Assembly: GCA_023078685.1 (NCBI GenBank)
Contig: JALGAS010000001.1
Location: 8,246,001 to 8,310,000 of the forward strand
Source: Neopestalotiopsis rosae
Lineage: Eukaryota > Ascomycota > Sordariomycetes > Amphisphaeriales > Sporocadaceae
Reading direction: 5' to 3'
DNA: 64,000 nucleotides
The notes beneath the pieces were generated by a model. It saw only the letters and a list, made by a program, of their open reading frames with translations. It was not told where the DNA came from and made no database searches. This document shows, piece after piece, positions 16,877 to 61,286 of this stretch. Position numbers and translations under genes: made by a program. Position 1 is the stretch's first letter; each line of letters begins with the position of its first letter.

Positions 16877-17493
16877 AGACTTTCGTGGATTTTTCGTGCC
16901 CTGGCTGGGTATTGGTAGCTTATAACGACGCCGAGATTCTCCTTTTGCAGCAGTAACCCCTTTGTATCTTATATGTGGCAGTTTATATAACCTCACCAAC
17001 CGAATTATGTTTCCCTTTGCAACCATCGATGCGCTTTTCGCTGTGTATCGATGCATGCTCAGAGGGAGGCTATGTCAGGCATGGTTAAATCACCGCCAAC
17101 CAATCATTGAACAGATTCGAATCAGGAGAAATTGAAGAAATATTACAAGCTTCATAATATCTCAATATTTTCAACTGATCAATACCCGGACGGCTTCTCT
17201 TCGCATTGCTAGACGCAGCAGTTCATCGTAACATCGTGGCTATTAGCTTTACACCTAATTATAGTCTGATCTGGTCCAATTATTCGTGCCAATCCCTATT
17301 GGTTAGAATAATGACAGCTGCCGCTATTGGTATGGCCTCGATCATGCCAAGATAGTACGCCAAGATACTGCGCCGCAGCGGCTCTATCTAGGATCTGCCT
17401 GTTGCTACAAAACATCAGGAGAATACCAATCATTAAAATTTACCTGACCTTTGTCATTATCTTTCATCATCTTGAGTTTCGACAACAAGAGCA
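16877..17493. other. Intergenic, no supported gene
   Basis: Between two plus-strand genes. I see only the 3' flank of the phosphoesterase and the promoter region of the reductase. Confidence 0.5.
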
Positions 17494-18387
17494 ATGACGG
17501 CAGAAAAATTGAGCTTAGAGTCTTCCCTCGCCCTGCGTGACTCAGAGGGGAAGCTACCAGTTCTCGGCTTCGGGGTCTACCAGATTGACCCCCCAGACAC
17601 CACGGCGGCATGTCTGCAAGCGCTGACGGCGGGCTATCGCCACATTGACACAGCGCAGCTGTACCAAAATGAAGCCGAAGTGGGCGTGGCGTTGCGGGCG
17701 TGCGGGCTGCCGCGCGAGGACATCTTTATCACAACCAAGATCCGCTATCCTCGTCTCGGCAAGAACAAAACGTATATGCGTGCACTGCAGAGCGTCGAGA
17801 AAATTGACCCGCGCGGCGACGAGGGATATGTGGACTTGTTTCTCGTCCACACGCCTTATGGCATTAGTACCAAAGATCGAAAGGAGATGTGGCTGGCGCT
17901 GGAGAAGCTGCACGAGGAGGGCCGAGCTCGGGCCATTGGTGTAAGCAACTTTGCGCCTGAGCACATCGAGGAGATGAGGACATACGCCTCAGTGTGGCCC
18001 CCAGCTGTCAACCAGATCTTGGCACGTAGTAAGCTTGCTTTCGAATGATGGAAAGCGAATGCTGATATATCGCAGCTTCATCCCTGGACCCAACAACGGC
18101 AGACGGTTGAATACTGCAATGAACATGGCATTCTGCTCGAGGCCCATACGCCTTTGGCTAGGGGCGCAAGGTGGAAGGACCCTGTTGTTTCTGAGATCGC
18201 TGAGAAGCTCGACAAGACACCAGCGCAAATTTTGATCCGATATTGCCTGCAGAAGGGCTGGGTTCCACTGCCCAGAAGCGAGAGGGAAGAGCGCATTAGA
18301 GAGAATGCGACAGTCTTTGATTTTGAAATATCAGAAACTGATATGAATGCTCTCGATGAGCTGGATGGCCAGAAAGTGCCTAATTGA
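17494..18387 (+). CDS. Aldo-keto reductase with apparent GC-AG intron
   Basis: NADPH-type aldo-keto reductase of the single-domain (alpha/beta)8 barrel family. The catalytic tetrad is visible: Asp52 and Tyr57 in HIDTAQLYQNE, Lys82 in ITTKI, and His119 in LVHTP. GVSNF and the cofactor-binding IPLPRS-like segment (VPLPRSEREERI) follow. To keep the conserved NQ-x-x-LHPW region in frame, exon 1 must end at 18021 and exon 2 start at 18076, which gives an intron 18022-18075 beginning GCACGT, a GC donor. The canonical GT dinucleotides a few bases on break the frame. At the junction the nearly invariant Glu of NQxE is replaced by Leu. The predicted product is 279 aa. It may be functional with a weak splice site or an early pseudogene. 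Confidence 0.75.
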
Positions 18388-19577: not shown

Positions 19578-20033
19578 ATGCATCATTCAAACCTCGTTTC
19601 TCTCCTAGCAAGCATTGCTACGGCCGCTAGTGGTGTTCTGGCAGCACCAGCCGCTGGAACTGAGCCAACCATGTACCCACGAGAGGTGGAGGTAGATCCT
19701 CGCACCGTTCATCTTGAATCTTCAGTCACAGGTTTTAAGCGCTCAGAACCGACCCTCGTTGCGAGAGACGGAGAGATCGACCCACGTACTGTTCATTTGG
19801 AATCTTCGGCGACGGGGTTCAAGCGTTCAGAGGCAACCCTAGTGGCCAGAGAACCGCAAGAAGTAGATCCTCGGACCGTTCATCTTGAGTCTTCGGTCAC
19901 TGGTTGGAAGCGTTCAGAGCCGACGCTGCTTGTTCGAGACGATGAAATCGATCCTCGGACCGTTCATCAGGAGTCCTCGGCCACAGGCTTCAAGCGCTCG
20001 GAGCCAACATTGGTTGTGCGGGAGGAGCAGTAG
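19578..20033 (+). CDS. Secreted repeat protein with four kexin sites (KEP precursor)
   Basis: Intronless, 151 aa. It starts with a clear signal peptide (hydrophobic core LVSLLASIATAASGVLA, likely cut near residue 22). Four near-identical units of 28-29 residues follow, each built as DPRTVHLESS(V/A)TG(F/W)KR then SE(P/A)TL(V/L)(A/V)R. The dibasic KR pairs fall at residues 54-55, 82-83, 111-112 and 139-140. Units 1 and 3 share EVDPR...SSVTG, and units 2 and 4 share EIDPR...SSATG, so a two-unit block was duplicated. This is the architecture of fungal kexin-processed peptide precursors, in which Kex2 in the Golgi releases repeated peptides; some are substrates for RiPP cyclisation and others act as signals. 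The peptides here lack the Tyr-rich cores of ustiloxin-type dikaritins and the Trp/Cys/GQPC pattern of alpha pheromones. The function is unknown. Confidence 0.85.
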   Translation: MHHSNLVSLLASIATAASGVLAAPAAGTEPTMYPREVEVDPRTVHLESSVTGFKRSEPTLVARDGEIDPRTVHLESSATGFKRSEATLVAREPQEVDPRTVHLESSVTGWKRSEPTLLVRDDEIDPRTVHQESSATGFKRSEPTLVVREEQ

Positions 20034-23000
20034 TCCAGCAAGGGAGGTCGGTGACCGAGTGGAAACGTTCCGTGTACACCGTCAAGGGGCATAATTCTCC
20101 ACGACAGTCGGTCAGGGATTTCAGGCCAGGTCAAATGCCAATGTGCAGGAGTTGAGCATCTTGTATATGCATGCGCTAGCTAGAATAACTCGAGGCTTTG
20201 ATGTTTGCACAATTCTGGTTGGCCGATGATAGTTGCAGCAGGATCAGAAATGAATAGCTCAACAGCACTTGGTGTCCTCTAATGTTGCTGCTCTTCGTGT
20301 ACAGAGTATGTTTGGTGTTTGCCCACGGAACGTGTCTCGCAGGAGATTAGTGAGAAACCCAAGCCATGAAGTCAGTCTCGCGCAGTAGGAGAATAAAAAG
20401 GCTAGAACAGGACCTGCATCGGGCGGTTTGGCCCCCCTAAAAATTGGCCTGAGTCAACAATACGATGGAAGATGGACTATGTCGCGTCTGCCGTGGACAA
20501 CTGACTTCATTCCATTGTTTTACCGAACAGGGAGGTGGCAATCTTGTTTTCTAATAGCAGCCTGTTGTGTCGTAAGATGAATCTGCAATAAGACGAAAGA
20601 AGCAAAGGTAAGTGGAGGCCCGGAGGGCGGGAGGACGGGAGCCATGTCGACTTTTGTGGGGTCGAGCCTGCAAATCCGGGGGTTCTGGGGTAGGGCCAAA
20701 GAGGGTTCAGGCCACAATGGTTTCGATGAGGGAATCAACGGGGGAGTTCAGGCTTCAGAAGAATGAAACAAAGACAGAAGAGGCATCTTGCCAGCCAGAA
20801 GATGTAAACATAACGTACGTGCGTATGCAGTCGCAAATGCGTGTTGCAGGGACACACGCACATAGACAAGAGTCGTACGCGAATCACCTGATGCTCATTT
20901 CAACTGCGTGTGAGAATGAGGGGAAAGCGGCCACTGTTCCCGGCGTGGATGCGACGCAAATCCAAGCCCCAACGCAATGCAATCCCAACCTTGTTCAAGC
21001 AGGGAGAAACAGCAACAGCAGCAGCCATCAACAGACAAATGGGCCGAAACAGGATTGGTAGTATGCGTTCCCTACCACAGAGGGCAATGAGGAGGGGGGA
21101 TGGCAATAAGTGAGGGAAGCACACGCACACACAAACTTATTACTCCAACTCACCCGTCTTCCCTCTTAATTCATCTCCCTCTCTCTTGGTCCCTCTTTCC
21201 TCCATTACCTTACTAACATGCCAGCCTGGCAATGTACACTGCCCACAAACCAGTACTTTTCAACCCCCAAGTCCCCAAGTTGCCTGGCCGTATTTTGACT
21301 TCACTTCACCTCCGCACTTGAATTCTCTTTTCTGCTCCTTCCTGTCCCAATCGACCGTTGCAGATCCGGCAAGGGGTGCCATCACCAACGCCCGCCACGA
21401 GAGAGGCCAGCAAACTCTCAAATTGCCGAACGAGGAGAAAACGAGGACAGAGGCGCACGCTGTGTGCCTGTAATAGGTCGCTCCCAGCACACCATGACCC
21501 TAGCCATGACTCGTGCCTCATGGGACAGAGCATCAATAGCCCACGCATACCACCATGCCATCAACATACCAACCGTCAGACATCCAAGCAGCAATATCGC
21601 AGGCGACGCTCGCTTCGCTGGCACGCGGGTGTTGCCGCCACACGCCAAGCGTGGCGCTCGCTCCTTTGAGCTCACATGGTATGGCTCGGTTGCCTGGTGC
21701 GAGCACTTGTCACAACATTTCGGACGCGTATACTCGCATGGACACCCAAAGTCAACAAAGATACGTACTTCTCTTTTCGACATGGGCAGTGCATCCAATA
21801 TCAAGGTGTTTGTGTCGTTCTCCAACACGCCGGTCAGGAACAAACATGTCTACCAGAAGATATGATGGTGAATCAGCTTGAAATCAACATCCAGACTCGA
21901 AACGTGCTGCCAATATCAGACGGACAGACTAAAATGTGTTGCCTGCAGAGTGTCGCGTGAGCCAGGGCTGGCCTAGAGATGTGTCGAGTGGCACAAGAGT
22001 GGATGTTGAAATCGTTTGTGTGTACACGACCATATCTGCACGGATTATTATCACTGTGGGTGGGAGGACCACATTATGACCACATTGTCTGACGAGCGAC
22101 AATTTTACACAATTGGCCGATGCATGACCACGGTCTCTTTCTCTCTTACACTCTCTCTTTGGTAAGTGCAGCTCTATCTTCGTTGCGAAGGTTTCGGGTC
22201 GAATATCGTGGTTGGCAGTCCTACCTTGGTGGTCTTGAGCTAGGTTCAACGAAGTCGGGATAAGAATCCAACAAGGCCTGAAGAAGATCCGGGGAAGGAC
22301 TGGGTCAAATACTATCTTTGCCGTGGATCTCGTTATTCCAGCTAAGACAACACCATTGCCAAGAACAGTTAGGTATCTGGGGCTTTATCTCTTCCAAGTT
22401 CCATCTTTCTTTTTCAGGTTTAGCAGCATCACGCCCTCAACACCATGGAACTCCACGAGCTTTCAAGTGGGCTCTGTGATTGGAGCAACAGACAAGACGA
22501 TGGGGTCAAAAGAAGACAAGTGGGGGTTGGGAACTTGGATGTGCTTCAGTGGGCACTGTGAACGGGATTGCGGACGACAATGGGCAGTGGCCGAGGGTAT
22601 TGGACAGAAGTGGGTCCAAGCAGAAAAAAGCCCTCATTCAGCCTCCTGCTGGTGGCCTTGCGGCCAGAGATCGTGAAGTTGCGAGCGATAGCTCGACCGA
22701 CAAGGACTCGGGAGCACTGGCCAAGTCCATTGATGGACAGGTATCGACTTTTTTGACCCAATTGGGAGTCAATTGAGCAACAGCAGCCATGGGTCGTCAG
22801 ATGAAGTCATCAGGCACAAGTCAACAGTCTCAAAGTGGATATGTTCTGTGTTGCAAACAAAGGAAATTGCTCATCCATTTGTCTCCGAATCCAGAAAGAC
22901 GAATCTGGGAAGATGATGGTTTATATTTTACAGGTCCCGAAAGACTTTTTGACAGGTGTCCACCTCCGGTACTTGTCTACAAAGATCCATTGCTATGCAA

Positions 23001-23179
23001 GCCTTCCATCTAAAGCCCCTGCGTCCCCAATCTATGCCTCTATCGTCTATGCTGGATTCCCAATTGAACACAGGACAAACCGTGACAGGATGAAGCCACG
23101 ATCCATCGCGACTCGGTCGCGTTTCACACAGTCGAGAGCATTGTGTGAGCCCAGCCTCCGCAAGATGGGAGTAAACCGT
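20034..23179. other. Long intergenic stretch, no supported gene
   Basis: It opens with a degenerate, out-of-frame copy of the kexin repeat (20048-20083). A pyrimidine-rich tract at about 21140-21260 looks like a promoter or leader on the plus strand, but no convincing coding frame follows. Frames of 133-149 codons at 20612-21061 (+), 21464-21865 (+) and 21418-21843 (-) overlap and lack domains. Confidence 0.4.
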
Positions 23180-23816
23180 TTAGGTCTGTGTTTCCTCAAG
23201 TTAGAATTGAGCTCGTTCAACATCAAGTGAGGTATTTTTGTTTTCCGGGAATTACGTACGAACTTGGCCATGAGGGCAACCATGAGGTCGAAAAGACCGA
23301 TGGCCTCGACGAAAGCGAAACCCAGAATGGCGTAAGAGAAAAGCTGGCCACGGAGAGCAGGGTTGCGGGCAACACTGGTCAGGAGGGCAGAGAAGACGAG
23401 ACCGATACCGATACCGGCACCAGTCAGACCGATGGCGGCGGAACCCATACCCAAGTTCTTGGAGACCTCGACCATAGCCTGAGCGATCTCAGAGGAGTAG
23501 GCACGCTTCTGGAAAGCCTGACGGGTGGTGGCGTTGATGATCTGGGAAGCCTGCTGGCGCTTGACGGTCTGGAAGGCGTTGCCTGTGAAGGGATTCGATT
23601 AGCCATTGTCGCGGGCCATTGAGATGAATTGAGTTCTCGATGGAGGCAATTGAGCTCGATGGAAGAAAAGTTTTTTTTCGCTCGTCGAGCGGGTTTTCAC
23701 GTACTGGTGATGCTGCGCTTGGCGGCAGCGGTGGCCTGGACGCGCATGGCAGGGCGGGCAGCCTTGGTGGCCATGGACGAAGCCAGGCGGGAAGCAGCAA
23801 CACGGACGGCGGCCAT
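23180..23816 (-). CDS. ATP9: ATP synthase subunit 9 (proteolipid c), mitochondrial precursor
   Basis: Nuclear-encoded c-subunit of the F0 rotor of mitochondrial ATP synthase. Exons 23816-23705, 23582-23260 and 23185-23180 give 146 aa, almost the length of the Neurospora precursor. Residues 1 to about 66 are a basic, Arg/Ser/Ala-rich import leader ending in the processing region [12 protein letters not shown]. The mature part has two hydrophobic helices joined by the polar loop ARNPALRGQ, with the proton-carrying Glu in [11 protein letters not shown]. The reading frame at the end of exon 2 runs into intron sequence. Splicing GTACGT...ACAG brings in a final exon of only six coding bases, ACC TAA, which restores the conserved C-terminal Thr. 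Introns are 122 and 74 nt. Confidence 0.97.
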
Positions 23817-32682: not shown

Positions 32683-33138
32683 ATGAGATCACTCACTTTG
32701 TTTGCAGTCATTCTGCTCGCTTCCGTCAACGACACCCTGGGCTATGCCATCACCACTCATGACAACGACGACTACAACGGCGTCGATCCCATCTGCATCG
32801 GTACAGGCCCCGAGTCCTGTCAAGGCGTCTACAAGTGCGACAATGCCAATCTTGATTCCATGGAATGCGTCTTTTACGTCTACGATCATGACTGCCATTC
32901 CCTGCACTCGGACAACCCATGGGCCACTGTTCAGGCTGGTGTTTCTTTCACCTTTGACGGCCTCGACCACAGCATTGACATTCAAAATGCCACGGGTAGC
33001 CTCGATGCACAGCAGATGGGCGTTGTCTGGAAGTACCTGGAAGGCTCATACGGTGATGGCTTTGGGAACGTCCGAGGCGATTGCTCGACGCAGGACAAAA
33101 AATGCGCCTTCATGAGGTCGGCGTTCACCTGCAAGTGA
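32683..33138 (+). CDS. Small secreted 8-cysteine protein
   Basis: Intronless, 151 aa from the ATG at 32683. That Met directly precedes a classic signal peptide (RSLTLFAVILLASVNDTLGYA, cut near residue 20-22). An in-frame ATG 39 bases earlier would bury the signal behind polar residues and is less likely. The mature part has eight Cys, suitable for four disulphides, one N-glycosylation sequon (NAT), and many Asp/Gly residues. It has no transmembrane segment and no recognised catalytic domain. Size, cysteine content and secretion make it an effector-like or cell-surface candidate, but this is inference only. Confidence 0.8.
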   Translation: MRSLTLFAVILLASVNDTLGYAITTHDNDDYNGVDPICIGTGPESCQGVYKCDNANLDSMECVFYVYDHDCHSLHSDNPWATVQAGVSFTFDGLDHSIDIQNATGSLDAQQMGVVWKYLEGSYGDGFGNVRGDCSTQDKKCAFMRSAFTCK

Positions 33139-33370: not shown

Positions 33371-35149
33371 TCATCGACAAGCCAGCTCGAACTCCCAAGT
33401 TTGGCCAGTATCCACGGTTGTATTGCGCACTTCCACATAAAGCTTGGGAGGAGGTTCACTCAACTTTTCGGAAGTGATGGACCACGAAGAGAGTCCCTCA
33501 CCTTCCTTGGCGGATGTGTTTGATAACAGCTCCCGGCTTATCTCCTGGCGCAGATGGACGCTCATCTTGGGCTGCCTGAAGCCGTCACGGTCCAACCAGT
33601 ACTGCAGGGGTCGGTGGAACCCATCAATGACCTTGTGTTTGAGAACCATATGTGGCCGCCCCGGCAAGATGCCCGGCTTGTTAGGGTCCGCGCGCAGCTC
33701 AAAGATCAAGTGTCTTTTGTGAAACTGGCCTTTCAAGGACATGCTCAACTCCAGTAGTCCCTGGTAGATGCCCGTTCCACCAGAAGTGCAACCAATCTAA
33801 GCTATGTGTTAGCACCTCGTATCTCTAAGATCAACGTTTGGCATGGTCGATTCTAGAAGGTTGTACTATTTGGCCGCTGCATCCCTATGGGCCTTGATTT
33901 CCTCCATGATACGTACATCACTCACCAGAAAGGCTTTGTTCAGTGGATCCCAAAAGTTGTAAGGCATTTGTCTCGCAATGGTAACCTTGGGACCAACCGT
34001 GAACTTGATCGTGTGATTATCCTGGTGCTCAATCCTGCGCAGGTCATCCGACGTAAGGGAAGCAGGGAGATATACATCTCGCGGAGACAGCCACCAGGCC
34101 GAGTCGGGCAGCTTGTCGACGAGTTCGTGAGCGTGCGTTCTTACGAATCCGTCCATGGTCTTGGTCAAGTGGATGAAGGTGTCATGTGGTGATCCCACAC
34201 GCGAGCAGCCGAGATTGAGAAAATGCCCCGTGGAGCGCACAAGGGCCAGCTCTGTCTCCCTGAGGCATATGCCCTTGTTGGTCAATCTAAGCTCACTGGT
34301 ATACGGCATCCTCGCATCGGAAATTTGAAGATCGTGCGCGCCTGCAAAGTCGCGAGGATGTTCAGCAAACAGCCCGTGGTATTTGGTGGACGATTCGTTC
34401 CGCGCCTGCCATGCGAATAGCGTTAGGTCTTTTGAGCGCCGGCATATTTCCTCTTGTAGCCTGAAAAAGGCCTTCTTGCCTTCACCATATAGCATCGGCA
34501 TATTGATATCGAAAATTCCAAGCAATGAATACGACATATCTTCATCCCTTGTTGTCTGACGAGTAGCGGCCCACGACATCCGACTCGCGATGGAGACTGT
34601 ATCGAGGCTCTTCTGGTGAAGTAAGATGTCAAGGGGTATCCTGGTGATTTCAGAGATCTTTGGTGCCAGATCCTGTTTTGGCCAGCTATTCTTCCACTTG
34701 CTGTCATAAAAGTAGTATAGGTTCCTTGGAGCGATGAGCTCCTGTAACGTCCAACCTCTGGTCAGCCACCGACAGTTGGGCAGATGGTCCAATACCCCTT
34801 CTAACGAATCGGCACAGTCGCCGCTCAGATCGGACAAGTAGACGAAACACACAGCAGCGTCCTTGTACCAACGAAACATGGAGTTGATGGCCTCGGACAG
34901 CTCAGCGCTGCTAGTCTTGTCGATGCAGCAAGTGTCCACCCATGCGTAATCTAGGCCACGACCCCGAGCCAGCTCACATGTCTTCTCAATTTTTGCGAAG
35001 CCTTTTTTTAATTGTGCTGTTGGCAAATCGTTGAAGTCGCTCCAAAGCACCTCATCTTCGGCCCATGTGTGCGACAGTATCGCGTACTCGACCTTCTCAT
35101 GGTCGACTATGCTCTCCAACTTTAGACTTTCGGTGTTGATGAGCCACAT
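33371..35149 (-). CDS. HET-domain (heterokaryon incompatibility) protein
   Basis: Exons 35149-33926 and 33796-33371 (129-nt intron, GTGAGT...TTAG) give 549 aa. The N-terminal HET domain is clear: MWLINTESLKLE start, YAILSHTW, the YAWVDTCCID motif, AINSMFRWYKDAAVCFVYLSD and RGWTLQELIAP. A further conserved block (AATRQTTRDEDMSYSLLGIF and MLYGEGKKAFFRLQEEI) is typical of the larger HET proteins. The C-terminus has no NACHT, WD40 or ankyrin repeats. HET proteins trigger cell death when incompatible hyphae fuse. The start at 35149 is where family similarity begins; the frame is open further upstream. Reading exon 1 past 33926 would end 20 or so residues later and lose the conserved-looking second exon. 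Confidence 0.9.
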
Positions 35150-35676
35150 GACTATCGTCGAGCAGTGAATAAGCCAAAGAGAGATGAGCCGGAAAAAAGT
35201 AGAGTGCCAGGTTCCGGTCGTAAGCACCAGACTCTCAGCTTGCACAGGTGTTCTTCAACTTTCGTGATCTCGAGAATGCTCGCAAAGGGCTGTCAGCCGC
35301 GGAGAGCCAGTCCAGAGGCTGGCCCCACGGGAAGGATCAGGCGAGAAAGCATTCATCCAATCACGACGCGCATCGCCAAAATGCTAAAGTTCAGCTTCCT
35401 AGTTTACATACGAGTCCTGCACCATCGCCATTCTTTTATCATTCTTCTCGTACCAGCTGCCAGGTATATGTAATATGCGAGTGCCTCTACATTTGAATGA
35501 CTAGGTGCTTGCTGTACGGAAGATTCTGCTTTTGTGCTTGAAAACCAACGTCTTTGCCCTCTATATCCACACTGTCGTTTACTTAGTATGAACGACAGCA
35601 CTCAACTGCAATTCATTGTTGCCGGTCTTTGCATCATGGAAAATTGTGTGAGATGAGATCTAATTTTTATCGTTTT
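35150..35676. other. Intergenic, no supported gene
   Basis: Promoter side of the HET gene and 3' side of the monooxygenase. Short frames only. Confidence 0.5.
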
Positions 35677-57885: not shown

Positions 57886-60800
57886 CTACAAATCCTTCAA
57901 ATTATTCCGTTTTCCAAACATATCTTTGAGTTTACTCCTCATGGAACCCGTAGACCTTGGCCGCGATGGTGCGTCAGGAGGCGCAAGAGCGGAATTTGTG
58001 CTATACTGGTTCCTTTGAAATGTGTCATTCTTTTGCGACTGCGCCGTACCTCCGAGGTCCTTGACTGCGCCTTTTTGGACCACCAACCCATGTAGGTTCT
58101 TGTAGAATGATATCAATTCCTCGCTGCGACTGTCTTGTCTCTGTGACGGTTGCCAGCTGAGTGCAAAATGGTCTTCCAAGCCCTCTAGGGTGTACAGCGC
58201 CTCGACTGCTTTCAGCGCGGGGTAAGTGACCCGTTGGCTCCTCAGCAGATCCATGCCTGGTCGTTGTTGAGTGGCAATCTCAGCATTAACGTCTGACCCG
58301 TTCAGCACGAAGTTCAGTAAGAGATGCGAGTAGGCGTAAGCAAAGCCGCGGAAACCAAAATTGCGCCAAAATTCGGCTCTCCGAGGCCGATGAGTGAGTG
58401 CATACTCGATCATGAGCCCCCAAGCACTCTCTCTTGGTGTGTGGAATTGTGCATTGGGATCGGCTCCCTTCTCCAGAAGTAGGCTACAGATGGCCGGACA
58501 GGTCAGTCTCATGCGCTCTCTGTGCTCGGAGGTGCCTTCCCAAGGGCGCCTGAAGAGCATGCTCTCCGTAGCGTGAAATAGTAGCCGTGAAGCAAGTCGG
58601 CCATCATCTGATCCTTGGGTCGTGCACTGCGGCACTGTCTGTTGTATGAAGTCGGTTGGGCGGTAGTAGACCACCAGAGAATAGAAACCCAAAGGCCTCT
58701 GGGCTCCAACAAGACAGGTCCTCAATGTGAGGCTTACGTCGCGGTCAAGCTGGTTCACTCTCTCCCCATCGAGGCCATACCCGGAAGCCCAGTGTGTATT
58801 CTTCGTATCGCACCATGATCTGGAGCTAATAGAGCTCAAAGCCAGTCTTTTGGCTACGTTGAGTGCTTCCTGTGTTACATAGCAAGTCCCTGCTTGACGC
58901 CAATGCTTCGACATTGTTTGATCAAGATCCAACAACACAGCAGGGGTAACTGGCCTCTCATCCCTTTCTGCAAGAAAAGCATAATGCATGGCTCGATCCA
59001 TGTAATACCAGATGTCACTATAATCAAGAACCATAGGACACTCTTTCGAGGCGGTCTTGCAGAGAAGAAGGCATGAATGACATAAACTCACAGCAGGGTG
59101 GAACTCTGTGCCTGTTGTTAGGAGAAATACCTTCTCCCAAATTTCGGGCAGTTTGAGGAATTCAACTGCCGTTCTGTGGATGAAGTCCACGTAATGGTGT
59201 TTAACCGATCTGAGGCCCAAAAAGCCCTTCCGCTTGTAGTCAACAGAGCGTAGCTCTAGAATTCCAGCACATCTCGCGCGAATCCTGCCCTCGGTTATCT
59301 CCACGAAGATCTTTTCTTCATTCACGGTGGGAGTTCTGACTGGCGTCCCGATGATGGTAGCAACATCCCAACCCGCAAAATGCAGTTGGACGGGAGTGAT
59401 GTGATACGTTCCACTTTGGGACTCAGCAGCGGCAAGGCATATCTGAAAAAGCTCTGAAGCCTGTTTTTTATATGCTAGCGGCATATGCATGAACATGGCA
59501 GCATAAAGATCCTTGAGCTCTGACGGAAACTCGTCTAGACGATGCCGCAGCTCGGTAATATCGTCAAAATTCTGGAGTCCAGTCAAAAGAGAGCGTACCA
59601 CGAGTACTACCCAGAGAAAGACTCCGCAAGACTTTTCCACAACTGCCTCGACAAAGGTCTCCCATTCCTCACCGTATCTGGATTCCAGGCGTTGACGCAA
59701 CAGACTGACTGTATAGTCACGAATGTCATCTCTGGTCAAGTCCTGCAGCTTCAGATGAGGGAAACTGGAAAAAGCATCGACGCAGGCCGGCGTTGGCCGG
59801 CTAGATACTAAGACTTTGACATACTGATAATGATTCGCCGCCGTGAGCAAGTTCAATATCTCAATCTCGTCTCCTTCATACTCGTCAATCCCGTCCAGTA
59901 AAAAGAACAAATGGAACTGTGAGCTTGTCTGGTCCAGAAGCCTCTTAAACCAGCGAAGAAGCTCCGGAAAAGATGGAGCTCCCAGAAGGTCTCCTCGGGA
60001 AGAGTCGGCATTAAGTATTCGAAGCTCGGGCACAACGCTTGCGATGACGCCAGGATGTCGGCTGAGGATATCGTACATTAATGAACGTGACAGACCCTCT
60101 TGGAATTTTTGAATTGCGCTGCCCAGGTTCCAGAAAAAGAAAGACGCAAGTGCAGTCTGACCCTCACAGCTTTTGGACCATTCCTCTATTGCTTCCTGAG
60201 TCTTCGGATTATCGAGGATGTATTTCATCAAGGTGGATTTGCCAGAACCAGCTTTACCGCTGATCCAGTAGCAACCGCTCCCAGACTCCAGCCAGTGAAG
60301 CAAAGAGGGCCATGGCCTTTCGGTGTCTCTTGTATCTTCCAATATCCATTTAAATGTAGACGCGTGAGCAGGCTTAACACTGTCATATCTATCGCGGTAA
60401 TGTCGGAAATACAGACTTTCCAAGACCTTTTTCTGGCTTGGCTCAAATTTCCAAAGTTCAACGTGTCCTTTGGAACTATGGTCCTTGATCGATAGCGTCA
60501 TCAAGCTTTGTCCGTGGTCCTCGAAGTCCAGCTGATATGCTCCTTTGGGTGCAATGACACGGGTTGTGCCATTTTTCAAAGTTAGAATGGCTGAAAGTAT
60601 TCTGTCATGCTGGCCAGTGCCTCGTAAGTCCGTCTCATCCAGGCGACGTCGCAGTGCGGCATCTTGGATCTTCATACCGTCCAGGCGGTTGTTCATTACT
60701 GCTAGGACCCGTGTTATCTCGGAGTACTGGTGGTCTAAGCTATCAAACCTTTGCCTGTTGATTTTGCGCATATCCTCTGTGGCTGAGTTAAGTTTCTGCA

Positions 60801-61286
60801 ACATACGCAAGACGAGCTGACTCTGGCAGGCTGCCATTTTCTCCATTAGGCGAGTGATATCGTCGTATTTCCAGGATGCTTTCACCTAAGCAACGATCTT
60901 CGATCCTGGTTGTTTGCTCTGCCTGAGTCCGTCTAATTTCTGAAAAATTGTCGCAATTTCGTGGGCCACGCTGGAGCAACTGGCAACGAGCTGTTTGATG
61001 GCCTGAAAATGTGAGTATCTGTCGCCTGTGTTCGCATTATGAAGTTTTTGCGTACATCGTCGGTCATTTGATGGTCAACATGCGTAATGCTACCCACGTT
61101 TTGGGGGTTTCTGAGGTCCGCAGAGAAATCATGGAAATCTCTTGCTGTGTGTTCGAAAACAGCACCTCGAATGAAGGTCGTGTCACCTGTCTCATATATC
61201 TTGAGTACATCACGGCATCTCCTCGTCGCAAAGTCCACGAATTGAACAACGGCCGCCGCTATGCCGAGAGCAGATGCAGGATCCAT
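57886..61286 (-). CDS. NACHT-type NLR protein with an in-frame TAG
   Basis: Fungal STAND/NLR protein, about 1,115 codons. Exon 1 is 61286-61056 and starts MDPASALGIAAAVVQFVDFA, the standard N-terminus of this group. Exon 2 is 61002-57886, after GTACGC...TCAG. The P-loop GKAGSGKST lies at about residues 326-334, the Walker B-like FFLLDGIDEYE and the sensor LVSSRP follow, and an ankyrin-like piece (LLLEKGADPNAQ) sits near the end. Exon 2 is in frame with the NACHT body but carries TAG at 60888-60886 (codon 116), where related proteins would have coding sequence. A CAG-to-TAG change would explain it. Alternatively the TAG can serve as a 3' splice site: an intron 61055-60886 is also phase 0 and would give an intact 1,076-aa protein lacking 38 residues. 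NLRs of this type act in non-self recognition and cell death. Confidence 0.82.

Follow-up and report, generated by a model that had tools for sequence, protein, structure and literature searches.

Gene content of the locus

The stretch of DNA analysed, hereafter called the window, comprises 64 kb of contig C1 in a genome of 53.8 Mb and 17 contigs. It carries on its forward strand a single-exon open reading frame for a small repeat protein (Table 1; contig coordinates 8265578-8266033), whose start and end were exactly those given in the preliminary description. Each of the five remaining frames across this interval is interrupted by stop codons (4, 6, 6, 7 and 7). Genes for an aldo/keto reductase and for ATP synthase subunit c lie on either side. 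Pfam was applied to 30 of the window's 118 stop-to-stop frames measuring at least 110 aa and gave a family match for 19 of the 30; farther away are found genes with calcineurin-like phosphoesterase, CBS/PB1, MYST acetyltransferase, CLP1, HET, phenol hydroxylase and NACHT matches. The same 64 kb hold a HET-domain protein (33869-35254) and a NACHT/NPHP3-type protein of 999 aa (57889-60885), both of them protein types linked to fungal self/non-self recognition, as well as a small secreted-looking, Cys-containing protein of ~150 aa without a Pfam match (32683-33138).

Between the repeat-protein gene and the end of C1 lie 61.5 kb. No run of telomere repeats was found at this end, and the distance therefore does not establish a subtelomeric position; the terminal sequence is coding-like and by eye resembles a chromodomain, possibly that of a retrotransposon.

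Neither a DUF3328 (UstYa-like) gene nor a tyrosinase gene had been seen in the window in the preliminary description, and this was supported by genome-wide searches carried out exon by exon, in which short exons may be missed. These yielded 78 UstYa exon matches, the nearest of which ends at C1:7813394, ~452 kb from the gene, and 63 tyrosinase exon matches, the nearest at C1:7402675, ~863 kb away. The genome contains many potential dikaritin-type enzymes, several of them clustered on contig C12.

Table 1. Positions in the window of the repeat-protein gene, its predicted parts and the neighbouring genes.
Feature	Position	Strand	Remarks
Aldo/keto reductase	17476-18384	+	two same-frame pieces with one stop between, probably a short intron
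Putative TATA box TATAAA	19455..19460	+	string match; ~120 bp upstream of the ATG
Repeat-protein ORF, stop included	19578..20033	+	single exon, 151 aa plus stop
Putative signal peptide, residues 1-22	19578..19643	+	hydrophobic stretch, then V-L-A / A-P
Unit 1 (V-type), residues 27-55	19656..19742	+	divergent front TEPTMYPR; KR at 19737-19742
Unit 2 (A-type), 28 aa	19743..19826	+	KR at 19821-19826; predicted peptide 26 aa, monoisotopic mass 2783.373
Unit 3 (V-type, ends W-KR), 29 aa	19827..19913	+	KR at 19908-19913; predicted peptide 27 aa, monoisotopic mass 2992.489
Unit 4 (A-type), 28 aa	19914..19997	+	KR at 19992-19997; predicted peptide 26 aa, monoisotopic mass 2898.400
Terminal half unit SEPTLVVREEQ, 11 aa	19998..20030	+	
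ATP synthase subunit c	23050-23598	-	Pfam

Architecture of the predicted precursor

The N-terminus of the protein is hydrophobic: segments of 11 residues beginning at residues 1-20 have mean hydropathies between 0.5 and 2.1. The putative signal peptide was recognized from hydropathy and its cleavage site placed by eye. It is followed by four regularly spaced KR sites (residues 54-55, 82-83, 111-112 and 139-140), an architecture typical of KEX2-processed repeat proteins (KEPs), as had been proposed, and no further dibasic site is present in the 151 residues. Cys is absent, and the sole Tyr is residue 33, ahead of the first KR-bounded repeat. All peptides predicted from cutting at KR are acidic (pI 4.25-4.57). 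For the neutral, unmodified products, a monoisotopic mass of 1285.651 was calculated besides the three listed in Table 1. Prediction with AlphaFold2 from the single sequence gave no confident fold, only low-confidence strands (mean pLDDT 41.4), an outcome to be expected of a precursor, but just as much of any orphan protein modelled from its own sequence.

Repeat units and their history

Tandem Repeats Finder at its default score detected a sole array in the 64 kb, at 19695-20005, with a period of 84 and 3.7 copies. The four units of 28-29 residues with an aromatic residue before KR, as originally reported, were borne out by their alignment, in which 17 columns are invariant and every unit ends in TG[F/W]KR, the consensus being SE[P/A]TL[V/L][A/V]R-(2-3)-E[V/I]DPRTVHLESS[V/A]TG[F/W]KR. 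The residues following KR can no longer be regarded as a mere spacer: SE[P/A]TL[V/L][A/V]R is as conserved as the remainder of the unit, unit 1 begins with TEPTMYPR, a diverged version of this stretch, and the repeat is consequently longer than an aromatic-KR core.

Units 1 and 3 differ from units 2 and 4 in three aligned features, namely V or A in SS[V/A]TG, V or I before DPR, and E or D after Arg. The alternation of V-type and A-type units in the preliminary description thus stands, whereas its explanation by duplication of a two-unit block received only modest backing from the nucleotides. Codon bootstraps on all positions recovered the pairing 13|24 in 1332 of 2000 replicates and 12|34 in 634, and those on third positions in 1316 of 2000 and 439, respectively; synonymous divergence is highest between units 2 and 4, which are nearly saturated (19.0/20.3). 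Such a duplication is a plausible origin of the alternation.

Past the stop codon and in another frame, 12 residues encoded at 20048..20083 on the forward strand resemble a unit end. Their score at the protein level was reached in 1 of 1000 shuffles and by 3 of 1662 other stretches of the window, but the likeness was not significant at the DNA level (170/1000 shuffles, 75/618 stretches). They are possibly the remains of a fifth unit, a weak lead.

Purifying selection on the whole unit

The first two-unit block was compared with the second over 53 aligned codons. The two differ at 39 of 159 nucleotides, with 28 of the changes in third codon position; differences affect 30.0 of 42.8 synonymous sites (pS 0.70) and 9.0 of 116.2 nonsynonymous sites (pN 0.077; Fisher p ~1e-14). 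The blocks are separated by 7 amino-acid changes, as compared with a mean of 23.7 and a minimum of 14 when the same substitutions were placed at random in 5000 runs, none of which gave so low a number. Frames +1 and +2 and two of the three reverse frames showed the opposite skew. The third reverse frame has a weaker silent excess (p 6.5e-7), explained by third positions shared with the coding frame, and each reverse frame holds 6-7 stops. Between pairs of units, synonymous differences range from 47% to 93% and nonsynonymous differences from 5% to 15%.

The repeat protein is therefore under strong purifying selection, a result that does not depend on expression data, and the combination of high silent with low amino-acid divergence indicates that the repeats are old and conserved as protein rather than the product of recent slippage. 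A non-coding or decayed repeat is accordingly almost inconceivable; an empty homologue search (see below) and the doubtful broken fifth unit past the stop would suit it, but the silent versus amino-acid pattern could not have arisen unless the array had been translated and selected over most of the history of the repeats. Selection acts on the entire unit, beyond the cut sites or a short core. This makes it probable that the functional ligand is the peptide in its full length, present in two forms that differ slightly. The KR residues are no more strongly conserved than the other invariant residues, and for this reason selection is no proof of cleavage.

Host genome and search for relatives

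The preliminary description had assumed a member of the Hypocreales. The Ste2 exon of the genome shows 99% identity to one database protein and 98% to that of Neopestalotiopsis clavispora (Amphisphaeriales, Sporocadaceae), as compared with 79-84% to Pestalotiopsis proteins, which places the genome in or beside Neopestalotiopsis and not in the Hypocreales, a placement made with one Ste2.

Within the genome, a search with the units revealed no paralogue; the sole match outside the array, on contig C17 (E 1.65, 33% identity), is surrounded by listed ORFs that contain no such repeat. Homologues with conserved repeats between species, whose absence the preliminary description had named as grounds for refutation, were likewise not found, which counts against its reading at the between-species level: among ~5.8 billion proteins none scored at E <= 1 (467 candidates scored), and with a lengthened query none of the 7998 candidates sharing most words scored at E <= 10. 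The protein database contains the Ste2 of Neopestalotiopsis and Pestalotiopsis, so that the genus was represented in this search. Small genes are often missing from proteomes. Bacterial, archaeal and viral contigs held no relative, as expected, these being weak tests for a fungal gene; a PDB sequence search gave a single match that was not meaningful (E 1.3), and a literature search with peptide strings gave no match. In the main text of a Neopestalotiopsis genome paper (PMC13215550) neither Kex2 nor RiPP is mentioned. A match to the GBP/PSP insect cytokine family (PF02425) was rejected, as it reached 19.8 bits against a gathering cut-off of 25 (E 6e-4), no stretch passes alone and Cys is lacking.

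Judging from the divergence of the units, the repeats seem to predate the separation of these species, even though the homologue search remained empty; an unannotated gene, its loss in other lineages or rapid change from one species to the next could each account for the lack of relatives. The selection detected between repeats within the gene nevertheless shows that the protein is real.

Interpretation as a KEX2-processed repeat protein

We favour the view, at a probability of about 0.78, that the locus contains a single-copy orphan KEP gene whose product would release unmodified, acidic peptides of 26-27 aa. As defined by Umemura et al. (2020; PMC7329392), KEPs have three or more similar repeats, each of 8-100 aa, delimited by Kex2 sites; Le Marquer et al. 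(2019; PMC6339444) require that cleavage at KR yield four fragments or more. Applying these published criteria by hand rather than through the authors' pipelines, we found that the four KR sites delimit five fragments, with units of 28-29 aa, and that the repeats make up ~75% of the protein, for which a coverage of at least 15% is demanded. A kexin is encoded in the same genome, represented by one P-domain match (PF01483) on contig C13, in a 586-aa frame in which a subtilisin-like catalytic region was also read by eye.

Following the route established for KEPs (PMC6339444, PMC7329392), the precursor would enter the secretory pathway by means of its predicted signal peptide, which would be removed; kexin would cut after each of the four KR pairs, and a Kex1-type carboxypeptidase would then trim the KR. 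The expected products would be linear, acidic and unmodified peptides, comprising an N-terminal one of ~30-31 aa, three repeat peptides of 26, 27 and 26 aa with the common plan SEPTLVAR-(2-3 variable)-E[V/I]DPRTVHLESS[V/A]TG[F/W], and an 11-aa tail. As VAR and DPR are conserved, shorter products might also be generated by cutting at single Arg residues. Several points count against the KEP reading. The search for relatives was empty, KR is conserved no more strongly than other invariant residues, one reverse frame also has a silent excess, and P4 is occupied at all four KR sites by Gly, which is not the residue favoured by kexin at this position.

Alternative explanations

The most serious competitor, although an improbable one, is a secreted or cell-wall protein with repeats that functions without being cut and keeps KR only as part of its repeat. 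It would account for conservation that spans the unit from end to end, the residues following KR among them, and for a selection that does not single out KR; a fixed KR in every unit behind a putative secretion signal, in a genome with a kexin gene, would however lead one to expect cutting. The low-confidence strands from AlphaFold2 do not separate the uncut protein from a KEP. Less probable is a modified, dikaritin-type RiPP precursor with cores cyclised by UstYa-like enzymes encoded elsewhere. Such a precursor would have the same architecture, the 78 UstYa exon matches mean that enzymes could act in trans, and Umemura et al. (2020; PMC7329392) place DUF3328 genes within 15 genes of 22% of KEPs. 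Here, in contrast, no UstYa or tyrosinase match occurs in the window or within ~450 kb on C1, the KR-bounded cores have no Tyr, and these measure 26-27 aa, whereas the precursors of ustiloxin, phomopsin and asperipin-2a have cores of 13, 14 and 8 aa, respectively. Given the missing Tyr core and UstYa neighbour, the protein is probably not a dikaritin. The two suggestions made in the preliminary description hence part company, an uncharacterised secreted signal being the best reading and a RiPP in the modified, dikaritin sense being disfavoured.

An alpha-type sexual pheromone acting as ligand of the host's Ste2 is, if anything, harder still to credit. The organization is that of a KEP and one Ste2 match is present in the genome. 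Moreover, three patterns of the W-C-xxx-G-xx-C-W type gave isolated matches at about chance number, without a precursor-like frame (6 versus 4 and 2 versus 3 in the reversed control, and none with the remaining pattern), and none of the frames around the matches is a repeat precursor; with a search of only three exact patterns, a canonical pheromone may still exist. The repeats themselves speak against this role, the earlier remark on the lack of a Tyr-rich core and of a pheromone signature having been supported: the residues after KR (SEPT, SEAT, SEPT, SEPT) provide no XA/XP dipeptide for Ste13, neither a Cys pair nor PYGxPxG is present, and 26-27 aa exceeds the range of 9-24 aa given for Ascomycota alpha pheromones (Le Marquer et al., 2019; PMC6339444). 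Without these signatures, the product is unlikely to be a canonical alpha pheromone. The KEP reading could also be extended to a new type of ascomycete ligand, in which long unmodified V-type and A-type peptides from one precursor address a receptor not known for such ligands, in its boldest form as a non-canonical ligand of Ste2; we regard this as a long shot.

Significance and comparison with known systems

The gene belongs to an already known kind, the KEPs, while its sequence is an orphan in the protein database searched. KEPs are common, often orphan, and few have a known role; Umemura et al. (2020; PMC7329392) list 7878 of them in 1345 of 1461 strains, 2560 being without homologues. The present gene adds to these an orphan sequence in a plant-associated fungal genus, with sequence evidence of selection on the whole peptide and with exact predicted peptide masses. 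The comparison of silent with amino-acid changes within an array is, furthermore, a cheap way of separating real orphan KEPs from chance repeats where relatives are lacking.

With the KEPs described previously (PMC6339444, PMC7329392) the predicted protein shares at least three similar, compact, KR-separated repeats, each far below 100 aa and together forming about three quarters of the protein, and its putative secretory start would be a further parallel. Its repeat sequence corresponds to none of the six conserved core motifs, pheromones aside, that Le Marquer et al. (2019) give in their text. Its predicted peptides of 26-27 aa fall into the 25-50 aa class of that study, in which the 9-24 aa class is given as the most abundant in Dikarya, yeast-like Basidiomycota excepted (PMC6339444). 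Pestalotiopsis is assigned to KEP type G-9 by Umemura et al. (2020; PMC7329392). The ustiloxin, phomopsin and asperipin-2a precursors consist of a signal peptide and Kex2-separated repeats, as is predicted for the present protein, and differ in the UstYa neighbourhood and Tyr cores discussed above and in cores half as long. Ascomycete alpha-pheromone precursors have in common with the present protein near-identical, KR-separated peptides, here predicted to be secreted, and differ in their Ste13 signature, Cys pair or PYGxPxG and in their shorter peptides.

A parallel in terms of predicted product is offered by the KEP peptides of Coprinopsis cinerea (PMC9769878), a basidiomycete with three kex2 genes. 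These peptides are mostly linear and, like those predicted here, minimally modified, and some of the KEPs gave products cut after a single Arg. Deletion of six Coprinopsis KEPs caused no phenotype in axenic culture, from which the authors suggested a role towards other organisms (PMC9769878). By analogy, the likeliest role of the predicted peptides would be to act as extracellular signals or in interactions with the biotic environment.
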